From NCBI GenBank assembly GCA_023053545.1, contig JAKZAN010000002.1, positions 7,870,790-7,934,789 on the forward strand: a stretch of DNA of 64,000 bases, read 5' to 3'. Shown here in pieces: positions 1 to 29,529 of this stretch (position 1 is the first letter of the stretch; the number at the start of each line of letters is the position of its first letter). This DNA comes from Lepidurus packardi. Taxonomy: Eukaryota > Arthropoda > Branchiopoda > Notostraca > Triopsidae. Both the position numbers and the translations under genes were made by a program. A model generated the notes under the pieces. It worked only from the letters and a program-made list of their open reading frames with translations. It was not told the origin of the DNA and did no database searches.

Positions 1-1550
1 CCGATGAGGGTTTCCCGTATAGAAATATCGTCTTGATCGGGGATGCGTTGGAGTAGATTGCTTTGGAATTGGTTGGTGTTGCGGTCGAAGGTGAGCTCGC
101 TGGTAAAAGTACGAGTCCCTGTCCGCGGACGCGATGGTCGCTCATCCTCATTGTCGTCATCGTTGACGAAAACCGGACGAGAGACCGGGCGGCTAACGGG
201 TCGTTGTTGGGAGTTCTGATTGTTGGACCCAAAACGAGCGACTTCATCATCGAAGTTAAATCGTTGGGAAGGCGTAGCGGGTGTGGTTTGGGCGATGGCG
301 GCGCGGGGAGGGGTATTCAGTCGGTTAGGGGAAGGGGTAGCGCTGCCAAAGAACACTTCTTCTTGGGGTTGTTGATGTTGCTGCTGTTGCTGCTGGGTTT
401 GAGTTCCAGTGTTGGTATTCTGAACGCGGGTCTTCGTTACGACTTTACGGGTAGGAGGGTTGGTGCGTTGGGGGGTTGGATTGACGTTGAATTGTTGGAG
501 AATGGTCGCCTCGTCTTCTTCGAAGCTGCTAGCTTGGGCCGGTACTGGTCGGCGAGCAGGGATGTTGGTATTGACTGGTCGGCGAGCGGGGATGTTCAAA
601 GGACGGTTGTCTTCTTGGTTTTCTTCTTCATCGTTGTTGTGGCGGTTGGGGTCACAAGGGTTGCCAGAGACGTAGGTGAACTCACGACGAACGCCTTCGG
701 GGTCGATGTAACCGTACTTGCCGCGGACGACGCAGTCTACGCCACGAGTTTCCTCTTTGAAGGATCCGTCTTCATTTTCATAACCGAAAGTGAAAGAACC
801 GTCAGCGTTCAAAGTGTTGTAACGACGGATGGTGCCAATCACGTTTCCACTCTTGGTGTCTTCTTCCTCAAGGCTGTCCACATTCGAGGTAGCTACGGGA
901 CGGGCCCGGGTAGTGGTGGGAGCAGGAGTGACTCGTTGCTGGGTAGCCGTGGTACGAGCGTTGGTAGTGGGTCGGCGAGCAGCTGTAGTTATTGCGGCCG
1001 CTGTCACGCGTGGGATGGTGGTTCTGCGTAGAGGAGGCGCAGTTACAGAGGGTACTGGGATAACAATGGGTTCCTCTTCCAAGACGATTTCCTCCTCGAT
1101 AACTTCTTCAAACTCTTCTTGTACTTGGGTAGAAGGTAGAGGAGTCGTGGTGGTGGTTGAAGCGGTGGTAGTAGTGGTAGTTAATGTACGCGATCGGCCA
1201 CGCGGAATTGCTGGGACTACCCTGGAACGAGTTCCTGGCCGTTGCTGGCCTAAAGTGAGATCCACTACCGCTGCTGCTACCAGCAGGATCACCTGTAATA
1301 CAAAGTGATTTCTTTACTTTTCATAGCTAATTACGTCTTTTAAAATAACTACTGGCTCAATGGAATAATTTAGTCAAATTACTTGGGCTTGTAAAAACTT
1401 AAAATATATATCTTTTTTTAAGTTTAGGCTTAAAAATTGATTCTAATACACGATTAATTAATATAGGTTTAGTTTTTAGAATTTTGCACATAAATTCCTA
1501 ATAGTATTTTCTAAAGAGGGAGGTGAACTTACGAGTGTTTTGGGTATCAT
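1..1550 (-). CDS. Secreted cuticle protein with chitin-binding (RR-like) domain, partial
   Basis: Extracellular structural protein of the exoskeleton. Exon 1 is 1533-1550 (six codons from the ATG, then GTAAGT). Exon 2 runs from 1292 to the window edge and stays open, so the C-terminus lies outside. The joined N-terminus MIPKTLVILLVAAAVVDLTL is a signal peptide split by a phase 0 intron, a layout common in arthropod cuticle genes. Residues about 160-217 form a Chitin_bind_4-type domain: DGSFTFGYENEDGSF, then GKYGYIDPEGVRREFTYVSG, then a Cys-Asp-Pro-Asn. A Thr/Pro/Arg-rich linker precedes it. After it come a doubled NIPARRPV motif, a Gln tract (about 370-390) and acidic stretches. About 436 residues are visible. 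Family assignment is firm; the subclass (RR-1 or RR-2) is not decided. Confidence 0.88.
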
Positions 1551-1702
1551 GCTATGTTTTGAAGTTCCGCAAGGCACTTGCAAAGTGTCCGTATCTCTTG
1601 GTAGTTGGTACAGTTGGAGTAATAGGGACCTCGAGTTCCTTGCTATGTTGCACACCTTTGTTCTGAATCTGGTCTGAACACATCGTCTAGCTCCGTTCAG
1701 TG

Positions 1703-1710
1703 CTTATATA
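1703..1710 (-). promoter_or_regulatory. TATA box of the cuticle gene
   Basis: The minus strand reads TATATAAG here, about 150 bp upstream of the cuticle ATG. A TCAGA initiator-like match lies about 32-35 bp downstream, near 1671. A TATA plus initiator promoter fits a strongly and periodically expressed cuticle gene. Confidence 0.6.
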
Positions 1711-3287
1711 GGCACCACGCCCAGCACGTTTTGGGTAACCAGTCGCTCGATTGCAAGCCAAAAAAGCCTTGAGGGGAATTGTATTAAAGCTCTTTTTCGT
1801 TTAGCATCTTTTTTTTTTCGTGCTTTTCTTTTGCTGTATCAGACCATCAGTACGAGTTCCGTCCAACCAAATGACCATCAAACTACTTGTTTTGCTCTGT
1901 TGCAACCTTTAAGAAAAAAAGATCTCTGCCATTTCCTGTATTTCCAAGTCAAACCAAAAGAACCTGATCCGGAACTTCAATTTTCTTTATCCTGATCTAG
2001 CTCCAATTTTCTTTGTGTTAAAAAAATAAATTGTATTAGCTTTTTCTTTGTTTTTGTAGGTAGTACATAGTTTCGTCCAAAAACCTTAAGGACCCCATGA
2101 TGGAATTATGGTTACATTCGCAGGAGAAAAGGAGCCTCTGGTAAATACGGCGTAAAGAAAATACAAGGAAACAAAATTGGTGAATAAATAAGATGTGATA
2201 CTTTCTCCTTTTTTATGGACACTATTTTAGGATGGAATTAGTGCACGCACTTGAAGGACTTATACAGTCCATGTGTCTTAGTTTGGTGGTTTCTGCTGGT
2301 TTCCAGATGTCCACGTAAAGGGAAGAGTAAAGATGAAGCAAGAAGTCGTTCTTGACCTATAAGCGAAAGTTATGCTGTCGTCTCTCTTCCTGTTGCGGTG
2401 ATCCAGAGCTGTTGGTTTGGGTTGTGAGGACCTACCTTAGCCATGGTCCAATTTCCAAGAAGAGTGACCTTCCTTCCGTTGAGTTTGATTTCATTTCTGC
2501 GCTGGAACTTGGACGTTAACACAAACTTAACGCATATGGCACGCCTTGTACTGTCTTCACGAGCTACGTTTCAAGGATACACCTTCTATGTGGACGAGGA
2601 TCGAGGATAGCTTTCATTGGATTCTTTGAGATTGCATTGGGTTCTTTACAGAATTTTAGAAGGTTACCTGTTATTTTGTGACTTAATCAGAATTGGTTTC
2701 TACCTTTATTTAGGTAAACGACGTGGGAAGTTGAAGTGAGAGCGAGTTTTTGTTTGGTTGGGCGGACGACTTTGCTTGTAAAGCAAACTTTCTCCTACCT
2801 TTTTGTAATAGCATAAAAATTGCCGCTCATTTGGATATGGGTATGCCTACAAGGAATGAAGGCAGGCGATTTTGAATCCGTGAAGCCCGTCCCTATGTGT
2901 CCTTGTATTCTTGGTTGGAATAGAGCCTGCAGCGAAATGTTTGAGAGGAAAGAGCGAAAGTGAAAGTTCAACTCACTTCAATTGTGCGTTCAGGTCCCCT
3001 CTATCCTATCCCCCAGGGTGGACGAACTAGATTTGGGGAAATCTACTTTTTTACTGAATGCGTATTACGTCGGAAGTACGATTATGAGACTAACCCACAC
3101 ATATACTACGACTACACGGTTAAGCTTCGTAATTTGTCTTTATTTTAGTTCTCATCTTTCCTGTCAGTATTTTTTTATTTTCTCTGCGATTTCGAATTGA
3201 CTAACAAGTCGCATTCCTGAGTTAGTAATTAGACAATTGAAAGTGGTATCCTTTGTCATTAAAATGTAAAGGTTTGATCAAAGTAAG

Positions 3288-20800: not shown

Positions 20801-23800
20801 CCATGGCCAAACGCGAGACTTTTCCTTCGCCTGGTAGTTTCAAGCTCGAGAGTTTCTGGGGGTCTCTGAACGGCGGCAAACATCGTTTGTCCTTGACAGG
20901 GACCACGCCCCACATATCCAATCCATCTTCTGTCAATGTTCCTGTCTGGCTTAAACAAAAAAGTCTCGTTTCTTGTCGATGTAAAAAAGTTTTAGCTCGG
21001 AACTTTGTTGAATACTTTGTCAAAACAGACGCAGTTGATGGAGCCTGATACGTTGATGGTTCTCGGGCTAATGCAATAAATCTGGAGCTTTTTAAGCCGT
21101 GCTTGCGCCAACATAATGCCCATGGTCATTGCGGCGGGCAAGGCAGGCGGGACAGCAATGGTCACGAGATCCATGGAATGTAAGGCCACATTTTTCCCCG
21201 TTTCGCCATTCACCAGTTGCACCACCATAGTATAGACCAGCCCCATGGATGCGATTGATGCTAAAGCGCCGACAAAACGGTAGGAATCGCGCTCAAAGCG
21301 GAAATCGACAGGCGGAGGGTACATAATGGATGCTACGAGTCCTCCTTTGGCAGTCATAAATCCAGTACGCACCACCACGGCTAAAACCTATAAAAACAGC
21401 ACGGATGAATACAAGAACCTTAAAAGGAACGTCTTTTTTGGTAAAGAATTGTGTGTTCTACCATATCGTTGCCGTAGTAGCGTGTCTGGACCACTTGCGT
21501 GCCACAAAATAGAGTGTGACGTGAATGTTCTTTGACGTCATAACACAGATCAGGCCGGTTCGGCAGCGGAGTTTTGGTAACTGGGACGCTTTCCCCCGTT
21601 AGCATCGCCTCGTTGACAATGCAATTGCCTGATAGAAGCACAGCATCACAATGCAGCACGCAGCCTTTCGGGGGAAGTACTAACACGTCACCGGGGACCA
21701 ATTCTGTTGTGCTAATGGCTTCTTGGACTCCCCCGCCTCTGGAAATGGTCATGACATCCGAGCCATGCACTGTGCTGCGCAATTTGTGCTGATTCTAGGA
21801 GTCAGAAATGAACGAGAAAATTAAGGTCAAGTAAATTTTATGATCGATAGACTTACTCGACGCGTTTGGATGATGGAAGAAATGACTCCAGAGGCTGACA
21901 TAAACACGATAACCCCCGCGTAATAATAGTACTCGATATTGAACCAAAGGATAACAGAGAAGACTTGGAAGATGTAAAATGGGTTGAGGACTTCCAGCAG
22001 CAACAACTGCATAATGGATTTCACAGGAACGATGATCAAATTAGAGCCATAAATCACTCTCCTGTCGAGAAAACGACCAAATAGGTTTTATTTTTTTTCC
22101 ACGAAAAATACTGTATAATTCATTTTTACCTAGACCACTGCTGCCAAGCTGACAAGCCGGTTTGTTGATGAAAATGAGAAGTAGCCACGCCTACATCCCA
22201 ACCCCGTACTTTCCGAAACTCGAGCAACTCTGGGTCCCACACATAACGCATTTTCTTGCAAGTAAACGTCCGAAATGACTCCATTTCTGTAGGACAAAAT
22301 ACAGGTTTTCAAGAATACATACAAAATAACTGACAGAAATTAAATTTCCTTACCAGCAAACGCGCCGCCACTGGTCGGAACAAGTAAGTGCCTCGGAGCA
22401 TCCATATCCACCGCTCCACGATCGTCAACAGGCGTGTCTGGCATCAAAGGAGGCGGGTTTTTTCTTAGTGCTGCTTGCAACGTCACCGTTGTGATATCGC
22501 GAACGTAATACCGCTTGTACTTTTTCTGAAACAGCTCCTAGTAATCAGAAAATACGATATGTTGATGTACTTAATGAAAATTTAAGAGTATCGCCAGAAA
22601 TTTTTACCACGACAAGAATTTTCGAAGCAACAGGCAAGGCACAGCGTCGGTGCGTACTCCATAACATCAATTCAGGCCACCAATGGAAAATCAGCCTCAA
22701 GACGCCACCTGTGAGAACAATTCCTGTCCACACCACCAAAGTCCATATCAAACTGCGTTCATAGCCATAAATTTCCTGCGAACACCAGAATGTCAGATTC
22801 CAAAACAAGATCAACAAGAAAATATAAACATACTAATGGTTCGTCTTCCGAGGAAGTCACATAACTGGGATGCTTGAAAGTAGGCGGAGTCGTGGAAGTC
22901 ACCTTTTCACCTGCGAAAATTCCAGAAAGAAATGACATTAACATCTCGAACTTGGAAAAAAATCTAATAAACCAAGTCTAATCCCAATAAAAAAAAAATC
23001 GTGAATATTAGAAACACAAAACGGGACCTGATAATAAAATTCGCGTTTGATCCTTCGCCATTTCCTCGACGCCATTGCCAGCCGTCTTTTCATACGCATA
23101 GCGCTTGCCTCTTTGACTCTCGCCACGCTTAGACCAACAGCCACTGGGCGACATAAGCACCGCCCCTTTTTTGTTTGCCTTTTCTCCTCCTATTCTTCTT
23201 TTGATCCGGATTAGCAATTTTCCCAAGTTTCTTCCTTCAACTCCAACTTAAGCTTTCCAGCCAAACACACAAGCGCTTTTTGGCTTGCGGTGCAAAAGTT
23301 TGACCCAAATGAAAACACGGTAAAAGTCCAAACGTTTCAAAATAATCCAAAAATCAATGAAATAAAAAAGACGGATTGCGAAAACCGATTGTGAGCCAAG
23401 GCCACCAGCAGCAGCTGAGCTATAAACACGTGGTCTCTTCCTAGTCCTTTTCCTGGCTGATCATACTTTCAAGAAGTCGTTGGAAGCAGAGCAAGGTATC
23501 CCTCACGGGCACGTTTAAGGTCCTTGCATTACACCCACTTCGTATTTCGAGTAACTTATCGCTACTTTTTTATCAGTGAGTTAAAAATGAAAGTCAAATT
23601 AAGCAACCAAAGTCACGAAAAGATCCGACCCCGCCTTTTCGAGAACTTCCTGCAACGATACCTCTAGATTTTCCCCGCGATAAAAACAAAATATATACAA
23701 AATTCCCTCTCTTTCACAAGCGTCTGGTCACAAATGCAATACGTGAAGAGATAAAAACTGCCGATTTTTCTAAGAACCACTTAACGTGGAACCCTTTGCT

Positions 23801-24353: not shown

Positions 24354-25857
24354 GGCTCAGAATTCGCTATTATCACAACACGTAAACACTGGCAATCTTC
24401 CCAAAACCAATCCTATTCGTCCGTAATTGTACTGTGCGTACAGCAGCGTGTTTTCGGCAGTAATTTCCAATCACATCTCCAAACAACCTTGAAAAGAATC
24501 AATCAGATTAAAAGTCAATCAAATTGATTACTTATCCAGGCTTCTATATATCTAAAATAACTCTACATAAAAAAAAAATCCAATTTGGGCAACAAAAGTT
24601 TTGGCGCCAAGAAAATTCTACCTTATCTTATCTCCTGAGCAACCTTTCTCCTGCGAAGAGAATGTTTGCTATAACTTTAAATTGTCGTTATAATTTCTAA
24701 GTGCACTGATAAAAAAAAAGATCAGTGCTAATGCTACGTAACGTAGCAATAGCTTTGACCTACAAAAAAAAAGACTGAATACAAACCCTACGCTAAACAG
24801 ACAGAAAAGGGCATGAACATTAGGACAATACAATTTGTTTCTTTTTACTTTCATGTCCATTATAACAACACAAATAACACAACAAGGGAAAGCATTCCCT
24901 CGCCTTCATTCCAAATTATCCACTTTCTCTTCCTTTTCCTTTCCTTTCGCTGTTGGCAATTTAAAGTCCCTATTTAATCCTTGGGTTGGAAAACAAAACA
25001 CTAAGCTAACCTCAACGCGTCCAGGATTCGGATAAAATATTGCAACTTGGGGGTGTCCAAGCCATTAATTCAGATACGAGACACGACTTCCCAAGAAAAA
25101 GAAGACTATTTACGACCCCACAAAACAGTGTGATGTGGTTAAAACCAAAAAGCGGACTCGTTGATCAGGATTTGTTATTCAAATCCAGGGCGCCGGACGT
25201 AATGGGAATGCACTACGTACCGAAAGACAATGAAAGGCAACAAACACACAGTTCTACCGAGTGCCACATAGTAAATTACACTGAAGGCAGCTTTACGATA
25301 GAGAGCATTTACCCAAACACACGGATCCGTCCTACCTGGGCAAGAGCCTGTCTCGCTGATTTACAACCGACTATCCTATCTTAAGGGCCTGTCCCAGACA
25401 ACACTCGAGTTCCCTAGCCTTACGATACAAACTCGGTAAGAGCGTACTTCACAACCTCACAATTCGCTTTCTACAATTTTTACTTTCTAATTTCAAGGCA
25501 GGTATGGTGTTTTTGTTTACGCTGATTCACAAGCTATTTTTCTTATTTCCTAGACTTTTAAACGTCATTTAAGGGAGGGGTTAGAGGGTTCAAACCGCCA
25601 CAAGAGTGAAAATTTGAATTCAGGCGAGCGGAACTTTTCATGGTTGGGACAATAATGAATTTCCCGGTTCACACCAGGAGTACGAGGAAACGCGCCGCAC
25701 AACGTTATCGAAACGTTTAGGTAGGGAGGCTTTACGTACAGTATTGTTTGTGAACGGTTTACCGAACAGTCTTGATCAGAAGCGCACCAATTTAAGTAAA
25801 GTAAGAGAAGGCAAAAGTGGGGTAGTTTACATTTAAAAGGTGGGGTTAACTTTAAAT
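24354..25857. other. Divergent intergenic region (ATPase / H2B variant)
   Basis: 1.5 kb between the minus-strand ATPase start and the plus-strand H2B variant start, so it should contain both promoters. A 114-codon ORF at 25040-25384 lacks an ATG start and any recognisable domain and is not called. No histone-type TATA/CAAT array is visible upstream of the H2B start, which fits a variant rather than a replication-dependent cluster gene. Confidence 0.45.
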
Positions 25858-27453
25858 ATGGCACCTGGACGGTCGACTGGCGGAAAAGGTAAAGGTAAAG
25901 GAGCCATGAAGTATAATCAGGCTAGTATTAGTTCGGGTGAAAAGCGTCGAAAGTACCGAAAGGCGAAAGAAGGCCCGGGTTTCGCGACTTATTTGTACCG
26001 CGTGTTGAAACAAGTCCATCCCGAGCTGGGAATCACGTCCAAAGCTATGCAAGTCATGAACAGTTTCATGAACGACGTGTTCGAGCGCATTGCAGGCGAA
26101 GCCTCGCATTTGGTAACGTACACGGAGAAATCTACCTTGACCAGCCGCGAGATCCAAACAGCAGTGAGATTGCTTCTTCCGGGCGAATTAGCCAAGCACG
26201 CAGTTAGCGAAGGCACCAAGGCTGTCGCCAAGTACACTTCTTCAAGGTAACAACCTAGCATTCCAAATGCTTTTGAAATTTCTGTCAAAATCATTATATA
26301 ACTTCCCGGATGCTACGTGTTCTATATTTATAAATTTTGTTCATTTTATTTTTTGGGGTTTTTTGACAGAGCGGGAGATACACCAGCTCGACGACCTCGT
26401 CTTTTAGCTCCACCCCGTCCCGTGATACATCCACGCCCCGTATTCACCCAAGCAGTACAGGAAACACGTCCCGCAGGTAAGTTAAGAGACTTGAACGCGA
26501 GAGATGGTCCATATCAACATACTGTAATGCGACTTTTGTTTCATTCTAACAGAAAAAGAAGAGCACAGAAAAAGACCTACACCATCACATGAATTGACCG
26601 AGGAGAAAGAAGAAGAACCAGCGAAAAAGAAGGAAAGAACGACAAAGGAAGTAGTAAACCCCGCCCAAAAAGCTCCCCCTAAGACGGTGCGAATGTCCAG
26701 TACCGAGTCACAGAGGAAAGCTAGGAAAGAAAAAGAAATTCCAGTCTCTCCTTCTGATGATGATAAAGAGGAAGAAGCTACTCAGTCCTACGGCATAACT
26801 CCTTCGCCCGCCCTCCTGGCCCCTCCTCCTCAGTTTCCGCGCACCGGAACTGTCAAGGATAAAGCTAAAGGCGTTTCGCAAGTTTCGAGGCAAAATTCCC
26901 AGGCCGCTGACAAAGGGGAAGAATCAAAAGCGCAGAAAACAAGGGAAAGACCTAAACTGATGCGGCAAATGTCGCAAGATGATTCGGCAACCAGGGAATC
27001 CCACAGATTGCCTTCTTCCGAGCGTGAAACACCCACTCTAGAACGCGTAACACGTCAACATTCCAATCGTACTGCTGCTGCCCCTCGCAAAGCTTCTCCT
27101 GAATCACAAAATGAGTCTCGAACGCAAAACGAGTCTACACAAACGAGTGCGAATACGACCGGGGAATCGCAGGGAACGCTTTCAAGTAATAGTACGACCG
27201 ACTCGGAGTTCCCAAGTACTCAAGATTTAAGGGATTTGGGTATGGATCCTGATCAAGGCGATGTAACCGCACTCGTACGTGTCAAAGTGACCAAGGTGAT
27301 ACTTAAACTAAGGGACAAATGGAGAGCAATGCTCAAATCCGTCTTTTATAGGTGACTGAAGCTATTATTACGCGAAGGTCGGGAGAGGGCAATCATGCAG
27401 CCGAGCATGATGAACCGGAACATGAAACGGAAGACATGCCCAGAAACGCTTAA
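25858..27453 (+). CDS. Histone H2B variant with long SQ/TQ-rich C-terminal tail
   Basis: Exon 1 (25858-26246) encodes a complete H2B: basic tail, then the histone fold with [20 protein letters not shown] and [20 protein letters not shown], and the AVSEGTKAV segment with the lysine equivalent to the ubiquitinated K120. Exons 26370-26476, 26553-27274 and 27352-27453 continue in frame, giving 439 residues, so about 310 follow the fold. The extension is disordered, rich in Lys, Glu, Ser, Thr and Pro, with Pro/Arg repeats first, an acidic patch ([11 protein letters not shown]), then at least ten SQ/TQ dipeptides. The fold diverges from canonical H2B (TYTEKST for HYNKRST). Introns and absence of a histone 3' stem-loop suggest a polyadenylated replacement-type gene. 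If intron 1 is retained, translation stops at TAA 26247-26249, yielding an ordinary-length H2B ending TSSR. Confidence 0.85.
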
Positions 27454-27786
27454 ATATTCTGTGTTTATTCATCTAAAATTTCAAGTTTTTTGTTTTACTA
27501 TTTGGTTCAAACTCGTGAAAATTTGACGCTGAATCTGGACTAACTAATTCTGAAGACTTGCTAGGCCCAGTTTTAAATTCTAATTAATATTTTCAAAAAT
27601 TGACAAGTAAATAAAGGCACACTTACCCCAATTTCAGTAAAATTCCCACTAGAGAACAAAGCGAAACGATTCTGTTCCCGAAACGATTAAAACTCCATAA
27701 AATTAAACACCTAATAGAAGTATTTGGTTATAAACTGATCAGCATTCGATTTGACAAAAGTATTTACGTTATAGCAAACTCTCCAG
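27454..27786. other. Convergent intergenic gap
   Basis: 333 bp between the stops of the H2B variant (plus) and the Cdc20-like gene (minus). AT-rich, with AATAAA-like sequence (AAATAAAGG near 27609), consistent with polyadenylation of the H2B transcript. Confidence 0.5.
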
Positions 27787-29529
27787 TTAACGAATTGAAC
27801 CCATGGTCAACACCGAATTGCGCGTTTTGATGTTCTTCTTAGTTTTGCGTGGTGGCCAGCACTTCCACAAGATTGAAAGTTCATCTTCACCCAATGAAGC
27901 CAGCGTAGTTCCTTCTGGATTGACTGCCAAACCTGCTACTTTCTCCGTATGCTCTGAAAACAGACACAGTGTAGTATTGAAACCTAGTTTGTGGACCGAA
28001 AAGACAAATTTAGACATTACCAGCAAATTTGGCTACAGGTTCGGGTAAGCTCTTATTCCACAAGAGGACACCAGGACAGCTGTTGCCATGAGCAGACGCC
28101 AGTTCTTGGTATTGGGCATTCCATACCAGAGCTGTTACTTCAGACATGCTTGTGCTGGGCTTTTCCAAGGCGCGTAAATGCACCGTGTCGGCCGGTTGAC
28201 CAGTTAAACCGGACCAGAGGCGGATGGATGGTGAAGGGTCACCCGAGCCCGAAGCAAATACATTGGTGAAGGGACACCAGGCTAAGGCTTGGACTTGGCT
28301 TTCGTGAGCTGAGAAATCCAAGAGGGCGTGGTTATGGGCGCGATAGTCCCAGACACTGATCCGACCGGTTTCATGCCCACAGACTAACAAATGTTCTGAC
28401 GAGCTAAGGCAGAGGGCAGAGATAGGCGAGGTAGTGGCCAAGGCGCTAATAGGGTTAAAATTGACTGGGTCCAAATAGTGCACTTTGCCAATCGAAGCGC
28501 TAGACAGCATTTTAAATAAAATATTTAAAATATAATATATATATTTTATAATATTTATTATATAATATTTTATTTATATATGCTTACCAGGCGAGGATTT
28601 TCTTCTGCCATACTACACTGCTAATATAGGGCGTTTGGAGCGTATAGATGCTTTTTTTCTTATTGACATCCCATATTTCTAAGACTTCCTCATTACTAGC
28701 GGCCAACAATTGCGGTGAAAAACCTGCATTCCAGGCCAGGCAGGTAAAGAACCACAAATTCTTCACGGGCTTCAAATGCTGCACAGAGTACTGGTTAGTG
28801 GGATTGCATATGTAAATCCCTTCAGCTAAAGAAACGGCCATCAAGGGCGAAGGATCCCAAGCTATACATTGCGGTGCTGAAATCAAAATTTCCTTGAAAT
28901 ACGTTTCAATTCATTGTTCTTTTATGATTTGGGTTAATTACAAACAGTAAAATACCTTCTTCGATGATTCCAGGGGCAGCCATAATGCGCTCCGGCATAA
29001 GATGAACCTTGCGGTTCTTGCTGAACTTGACATTGGGGACCACTTGTCGATTCGATTTCAACGTAAAGGGCAGAACACGGATAGGACCGAGAGAACGAGG
29101 CGATTTGGGACTTTCAACGTTGAACATATAGTGGTGAGAAGCTTCGACATCCAAAACGCTACGATTCGGGATGTAGCGGTCTGAAATCCGCTGACGTGAC
29201 CTGGGAGTAAGAAAAGGAGTACTTTCTCCTGTAGGCGTCAAATAAGGGGAAGCTAGACCAGGACTAATCGAGAAATTATGCGGTGTTCGAAAATTAGGCG
29301 TTTTGGGAGTCCTGAACATAGGACTGCGGATTCCCAACGTCAACTGCAGGCTTGAATTACTGACACAATGATTAGGAGTGAGGAATTGGGAGTACTTCCC
29401 AGGACTATTACCTAGGAAAATATACAACTTATTATGCTTTTTTAAATAGAAAAACTGCTTTTACTTACTTAAGAGACGCAAATTAGAAGACGTCTTCTGG
29501 GGGGTTCTTATGGAATAGGGTGAACTCAT
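27787..29529 (-). CDS. Cdc20/Fizzy-family APC/C coactivator (divergent, cortex-like)
   Basis: Five exons: 29469-29529, 28956-29411, 28588-28876, 28021-28499, 27787-27953; 483 residues. It would recruit substrates to the anaphase-promoting complex. The N-terminal region (~1-97) is Ser/Thr-Pro-rich, with repeated RTPKTP/LTP-type sites that look like CDK targets. DRYIPNRSVLDVEASHHYM (~98) is the Cdc20-type DRFIPNR segment, followed by a MPERIMAAPGIIEE stretch like the conserved linker before the propeller. WD40 blades follow, including SVWDYRAHNH, QVQALAWCPF and VAGLAVNPEG, and the protein ends in Ile-Arg, the IR tail that docks on Cdc27/APC3. The DRYIPNRS form points to Cdc20 or cortex rather than Fzr/Cdh1. 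Low similarity in the linker and first blades suggests a fast-evolving, possibly meiotic (cortex-like) paralogue; that is inference. Confidence 0.85.

Follow-up and report, generated by a model that had tools for sequence, protein, structure and literature searches.

The window analysed here, a stretch of 64,000 nucleotides from the Lepidurus packardi assembly, contains an H2B histone fold whose reading frame can be followed well beyond the point at which H2B proteins end, and it poses the question of whether this is one gene encoding an H2B with a long C-terminal tail and, if it is, what such a tail might do. The original prediction of an H2B fold continued in frame by a tail across three introns is borne out when the frame is rebuilt from the sequence: on the + strand, 25858-27453 accommodates four exons and three GT-AG introns, with a coding length of 389+107+743+102 nt = 1341 nt specifying 446 amino acids plus a stop codon, and residues 131-446 constitute a tail of 316 amino acids. 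Splicing and translation of the gene are predicted from the DNA, with the following features.

Exon 1, 25858..26246, + strand: residues 1-129 plus two bases of codon 130, covering the N-terminal tail and the entire histone fold.
Intron 1, 26247..26369, + strand: 123 nt; 29% GC and 44% T, versus 51% and 59% GC in the adjoining exons.
Exon 2, 26370..26476, + strand: first part of the tail, basic and proline-rich, containing a single TQ.
Intron 2, 26477..26552, + strand: donor CAG/GTAAGT (8.59 bits; the slash marks the splice site), acceptor ttctaacag.
Exon 3, 26553..27295, + strand: bulk of the tail, probably disordered; 10 of the 11 SQ/TQ; 247-codon open frame.
Intron 3, 27296..27351, + strand: 56 nt, GT-AG, 38% GC, weak donor.
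Exon 4, 27352..27453, + strand: acidic C-terminus and stop codon; protein end MPRNA.
AATAAA polyadenylation signal, 27610..27615, + strand: 157 nt 3′ of the stop.

Base composition separates the exons (49-59% GC, 16-20% T) from the introns (29-38% GC, 27-44% T). One frame of exon 3 runs for 247 codons without a stop, and the other two are interrupted by 10 and 18 stops; for a sequence of this base composition the probability of such an open frame is 7e-6. Two of the three frames of exon 2 are open, and only the phase used connects to the uninterrupted frame of exon 3. In exon 4 both of the alternative frames contain stops, and the one used stays open as far as the terminal stop codon; we estimate that frame agreement across the tail exons would arise by chance in about 1 in 9 cases. 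In an unspliced translation, retention of intron 3 would give a protein terminated by TGA at the exon 4 border.

PF00125 matches the H2B part at 68.6 bits (cut-off 26.4), and the best matches among solved structures are single-H2B chains (E ~1e-44). A 15-residue motif of the C-terminal helix, compared across 10 sequences, is conserved in the variant, as is K125, which we take to be the ubiquitinated lysine position of H2B; fold and helix together place the predicted protein among the H2Bs. The core shares 67 of 88 residues with the genome's own canonical H2B, and the codons differ at 57 third positions versus 13 second positions, with a dN of 0.21 (NG86; dS is not computable), so that the core is under strong constraint and has long been subject to selection. 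This constraint argues against a decayed copy of canonical H2B, which we consider unlikely. The core substitutions N89T, K90E and R91K fall in loop 2, a DNA-contact loop. We compared 330 core segments from 234 database proteins; even the 15 most similar to the variant match it at 69-70 of 89 residues and canonical H2B at 84-87, so the variant is an unusually divergent H2B.

The boundary between core and tail lies at a stop codon: the first bases of intron 1, GTAA, overlap an in-frame TAA (26248-26250) at the canonical H2B stop position, and unspliced exon 1 ends in KYTSSR-stop at the exact place of the canonical end, KYTSSK-stop. The canonical end AAG TAA already holds GTAA, and the variant reads A AGG TAA, giving the donor AAG/GTAACA. 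Because the lysine-stop sequence AAGTAA already contains GTAA, a donor that overlaps the stop codon points to an easy way for H2B genes to acquire tails, and it may also explain the spurious tails of some database H2B models. Scored with an approximate donor matrix, donors 1, 2 and 3 give 2.96, 8.59 and 2.81, respectively, and two GTs within exon 1 (after 25888 and 25894) give 3.91, above donor 1. On the same matrix the lysine-stop site of canonical H2B, treated as a donor, scores 3.69 versus 2.96 for donor 1 of the variant, which gives no support to the idea that donor 1 is an improved version of that site.

Retention of intron 1 would yield a tail-less H2B of 130 residues, a normal length, with R at residue 130 in both forms, and this structure could serve as a regulated switch, intron 1 being kept in some cells to give the 130-residue H2B and removed in others to give the tailed form. 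The canonical length and KYTSSR end of the retained form, the shared R130 and the weakness of donor 1 all fit such a switch, but intron 1 contains no + strand AATAAA, and its retention leaves the stop upstream of exon junctions, an arrangement that normally triggers nonsense-mediated decay. We regard it as the least probable of the readings weighed here.

A weak donor that overlaps a stop at the canonical H2B position is also what would be expected if the H2B ends at the TAA at 26248-26250, the junction being a prediction artefact and exons 2-4 belonging to another transcript or being untranslated. The codon usage of the tail, which is not convincingly coding, favours this account as well. Synonymous codon use in the tail scores -0.065 per codon, which exceeds the noncoding expectation (-0.136 +/- 0.036) by 2 sd, falls far short of the coding one (+0.123 +/- 0.031) and is nearer to the former. 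Of the five wrong tail frames, three (-0.060, +0.003 and +0.045) outscore the frame used; the score of exon 1 is +0.119. Seven exons from the window, five Pfam-supported and two presumed, served to train the codon model, and its noncoding GC was set by hand. Set against an artefactual junction are the 247-codon frame of exon 3, with its 7e-6 chance of openness, and intron 1, which is T-rich and, at 123 nt, hardly long enough to house a second promoter. ATG is missing from all frames of exon 2, and in exon 3 it first occurs in frame 140 nt in, at 26693; both likewise speak against a separate transcript. We can also reject an antisense histone as the source of the tail, since there are 7-13 stops in the reverse frames and no six-frame match at the genome's own histone loci, and this lack of a match counts against an artefactual junction too. 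Overall, we consider termination at 26248-26250 with an unjoined tail improbable.

SQ/TQ clusters are preferred sites of ATM/ATR kinases, and the tail contains eleven [ST]Q (at residues 156, 218, 242, 274, 281, 306, 350, 356, 361, 371 and 388), with eight packed within 115 residues (274-388) and five within 39 (350-388). The original prediction had counted at least ten, eight of them in about 130 residues; both counts hold, the extra site being VFTQ at 156. When the tail from residue 130 onwards (317 aa) was shuffled 20,000 times, SQ/TQ averaged 3.77; the fraction of shuffles reaching 11 was 1e-4, and the fraction with 7 in 100 residues was 8e-4. Eleven of the 19 glutamines in the tail are preceded by S or T (binomial P 3e-4), exon 3 has 10 [ST]Q versus 3.9 expected, and SQ has the lowest Poisson P among all tail dipeptides (0.010; TQ, 0.051). 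The maximum per 100 residues is 7 in the variant and at most 4 in 15 of the 18 other window frames of at least 150 aa (three overlapping frames were left out), a small local background that is partly unproven as coding and is not a proteome. The strict definition of an S/T-Q cluster domain, three in 50 residues (PMC3564818), applies five overlapping times, with a maximum of five in 50. Clusters of this sort are widespread: in the text portions of the same survey, the loose definition takes in 25% of the yeast proteome, and the strict one 436 yeast and 2,193 human proteins (PMC3564818).

The tail has a net charge of 0 and falls on the disordered side of the charge-hydropathy line. An AlphaFold prediction of exon 3 alone gave a mean pLDDT of 49.9 and one 5-residue helix, from a single sequence without alignment, a setting in which ordered proteins too are often predicted with low confidence. 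The tail is thus probably disordered, and we reject a known domain, since the only Pfam matches at E<=1 are to two histone-fold families and lie in the core. DNA-packing sperm H2B tails carry basic SPKK-type repeats; here the tail has no [ST]P[KR][KR] and one [ST]P.[KR], and with no SPKK-type repeat and zero net charge it is rejected as a DNA-packing sperm tail. There is no SQ[E/D]-hydrophobic C-terminus, and by its end motif the variant is not of the H2A.X type.

A database search with the whole protein gave 1,103 matches, of which the best 120 cover 15-38% of the query, and a search with the first 144 residues gave 7,989, of which 120 are listed. The 234 proteins compared, drawn from the best 120 matches of each search, include no orthologue of the variant core; the best core identity among them is 70 residues, and the same sequence shares 84 with canonical H2B. 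Daphnia magna, Artemia and Tigriopus are among the matches listed and show no counterpart of the variant gene there, so the gene would be lineage-restricted, fast-evolving or unannotated elsewhere. The original prediction had also proposed searching for homologues of the tail, and none was found at E<=0.001 in a set of 4,606 candidates whose lengths ranged from 0.55 to 1.75 times that of the query.

Other tailed H2Bs are found among these 234 proteins. In the 26 listed that have one core match and at least 100 further residues, 0-3 SQ/TQ follow the core, and several of the long-tailed database H2Bs turn out to be artefacts of gene modelling or to be fused to other histones. Thirty-nine of the 234 have one H2B end motif and at least 15 further residues, and at their stop position 23 have K and 11 have N; K or N in 34 of 39 fits splicing at AA/GTAA of the lysine-stop codons, with the limit that other kinds of fusion also give K, and it lends some weight to an H2B that ends at its TAA. 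The same can be said of the tails of P0094 from D. magna and of P0095 and P0104 from Tigriopus, which are annotation artefacts because they match antisense H4 (60.6, 46.5 and 50.0% identity, respectively). These antisense-H4 tails are the strongest general warning against accepting tailed H2Bs without RNA evidence. Spliced H2B isoforms of human and mouse are listed as putative in the relevant part of one account (PMC5223428). We nonetheless consider that the Lepidurus H2B variant is probably real and lineage-restricted.

The class of gene to which the variant belongs can be judged from its surroundings. There is no Rfam Histone3 stem-loop in 24500-29500, the positive control being two in the canonical histone repeat (L019), and the sole matches to a loose stem-loop pattern are at 23763 and 46478, with 0.69 expected by chance. 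The tail is found once in the genome, in a search that lists dozens of canonical H2B copies. Three predicted introns, no nearby stem-loop and no second copy of the tail are not the attributes of a replication-dependent histone gene; given these and the AATAAA, the variant is most likely a replacement-type (replication-independent), polyadenylated H2B variant gene.

Several other loci were noted in passing. The canonical histone repeat unit contains a 5S rRNA gene (L019:3820-3938, 104.2 bits). A dispersed H2B (L021, G000:C4:5176500-5180500, - strand 1876..1349) has its TAA stop changed to TAC, and its frame extends via the former stem-loop region into a 52-residue tail; in a dispersed divergent H2A/H2B pair (L026, G000:C3:771000-774500, 915-1854) the H2B is broken inside the fold and is probably a pseudogene. 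Single-exon H2A.Z-like frames occur on two small contigs that may be contaminants (L022 and L023, on C248 and C330), and there is a split H2A.Z-like gene on C5 (L032). The convergent neighbour of the variant (window 28010-29460, - strand) is by appearance a divergent CDC20/Fizzy-type WD40 gene, one exon of which matches PF24807 at 81.6 bits (below the cut-off of 200) and PF00400 at 37.6 bits (above the cut-off of 27).

An ordinary H2A.X is present in the assembly (L030, G000:C2:4237000-4239800, 1076-1537, - strand), ending in GKQQSQEY. We therefore reject the tail as a stand-in for a missing H2A.X, and the variant would be an addition to this protein rather than its replacement.

The best explanation, to which we give an even chance of being correct, is an intron-bearing H2B variant whose frame passes through the stop-overlapping splice donor into a 316-residue disordered arm for multi-site phosphorylation and docking. 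The histone fold would most likely pair with H2A and enter nucleosomes, and the tail would project from the nucleosome beside the H2B C-terminal helix; incorporation into nucleosomes and disorder in vivo are both what the sequence would lead us to expect. Because SQ/TQ is the outstanding over-represented motif, ATM/ATR-type kinases would be the leading candidates for writers; conceivable readers are FHA or BRCT proteins, and damage, replication stress or the germ line could provide the occasion. FAT segments (9 matches) and FHA segments (31 matches) occur in the assembly, identified at the domain level and in some cases on small contigs. The STQDL at residues 387-391 of the variant is similar to the T68 site of CHK2.

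A putative DNA-damage function of the tail can be stated more fully as a multivalent signalling arm on a lineage-specific H2B, written by ATM/ATR, read by FHA/BRCT proteins, acting beside H2A.X, possibly in the germ line, and arisen from a stop turned donor; in this complete form we find it rather improbable. If true, it would provide up to 11 SQ/TQ sites per H2B and up to 22 per nucleosome. The role of damage-kinase substrate is normally shared out among H2A.X and adaptors like MDC1, and an SQ/TQ-clustered H2B would place a many-site substrate directly on the nucleosome. The suggestion of a damage- or meiosis-responsive mark is supported as far as an H2B-type histone with a strict SQ/TQ cluster is concerned, but an H2B damage mark as such is not new.

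The main rival to a phosphorylation and docking arm is that the H2B variant evolves rapidly in the germ line or sperm, as one of those that gain long tails of poor conservation; its tail would tune packing or deposition, and the SQ/TQ cluster would be incidental and have no damage role. The divergence of the core (67/88) and the lack of a relative among the matches listed fit rapid turnover of this kind, which mammalian H2B variants also undergo, and the C-terminal tail is extended in mammalian H2B.W, which has been reported from human sperm, according to parts of two accounts (PMC8857922, PMC11742582). Hydractinia has five H2B variants, four of them specific to male germ cells, as described in part of another (PMC5011920). 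A charge-neutral tail without SPKK-type repeats is not readily reconciled with this proposal, however, nor is an SQ/TQ excess that composition alone does not give, and we regard it as possible though unlikely.

H2B variants are described as the least characterised class of histone variants in part of one account (PMC11742582), and no H2B with such an SQ/TQ tail was found in the portions consulted of the open-licence literature on H2B variants and extensions. The mammalian H2B.W resembles the Lepidurus variant in being a divergent H2B with an extended C-terminal tail (PMC8857922, PMC11742582, in part), but it is without introns (PMC8857922, in part), whereas the variant has three predicted ones. 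The vertebrate H2B.K and H2B.N, given in the same portions as the sole intron-containing H2B variants, share this feature with it; they have one intron location in common, whereas the three introns of the variant all lie beyond the fold, and H2B.N has a shorter C-terminal tail (PMC8857922). Extra C-terminal sequence on a histone is also seen in macroH2A and in the bdelloid H2Abd, H2Abd1 and H2Abd2. All of these belong to the H2A family. The addition in macroH2A is a folded domain. The bdelloid tails extend 28-43 residues past LLPKK and are without the H2A.X SQ end, as part of one account describes (PMC2642717). The variant resembles the S/T-Q cluster domain proteins in having at least three S/T-Q in 50 residues, and the text portions of that survey mention no core histone with a cluster (PMC3564818).

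H2A.X and H2Av are likewise histones in which an SQ on the C-terminal side serves as a damage mark, but they are of the H2A family with a single SQ[E/D]-hydrophobic end, whereas the variant is an H2B without such an end. Budding-yeast H2B has T129 at its C-terminus, in a TQ context. Phosphorylation of this residue depends on Mec1 and Tel1 (PMC9967470, in part), and phosphomimetic and non-phosphorylatable H2A/H2B mutants leave growth rate unchanged (PMC11630823, in part). An H2B S/T-Q as a damage-kinase target is the point of likeness to yeast (PMC9967470, PMC11630823), with the difference that T129 is one site on an ordinary H2B and the variant has 11 candidate sites on a 316-residue tail. The original prediction took the design to be undescribed; the yeast mark, as presented in part of its source (PMC9967470), is a known precedent for an H2B damage mark, and it is the many-site H2B tail that would be new.
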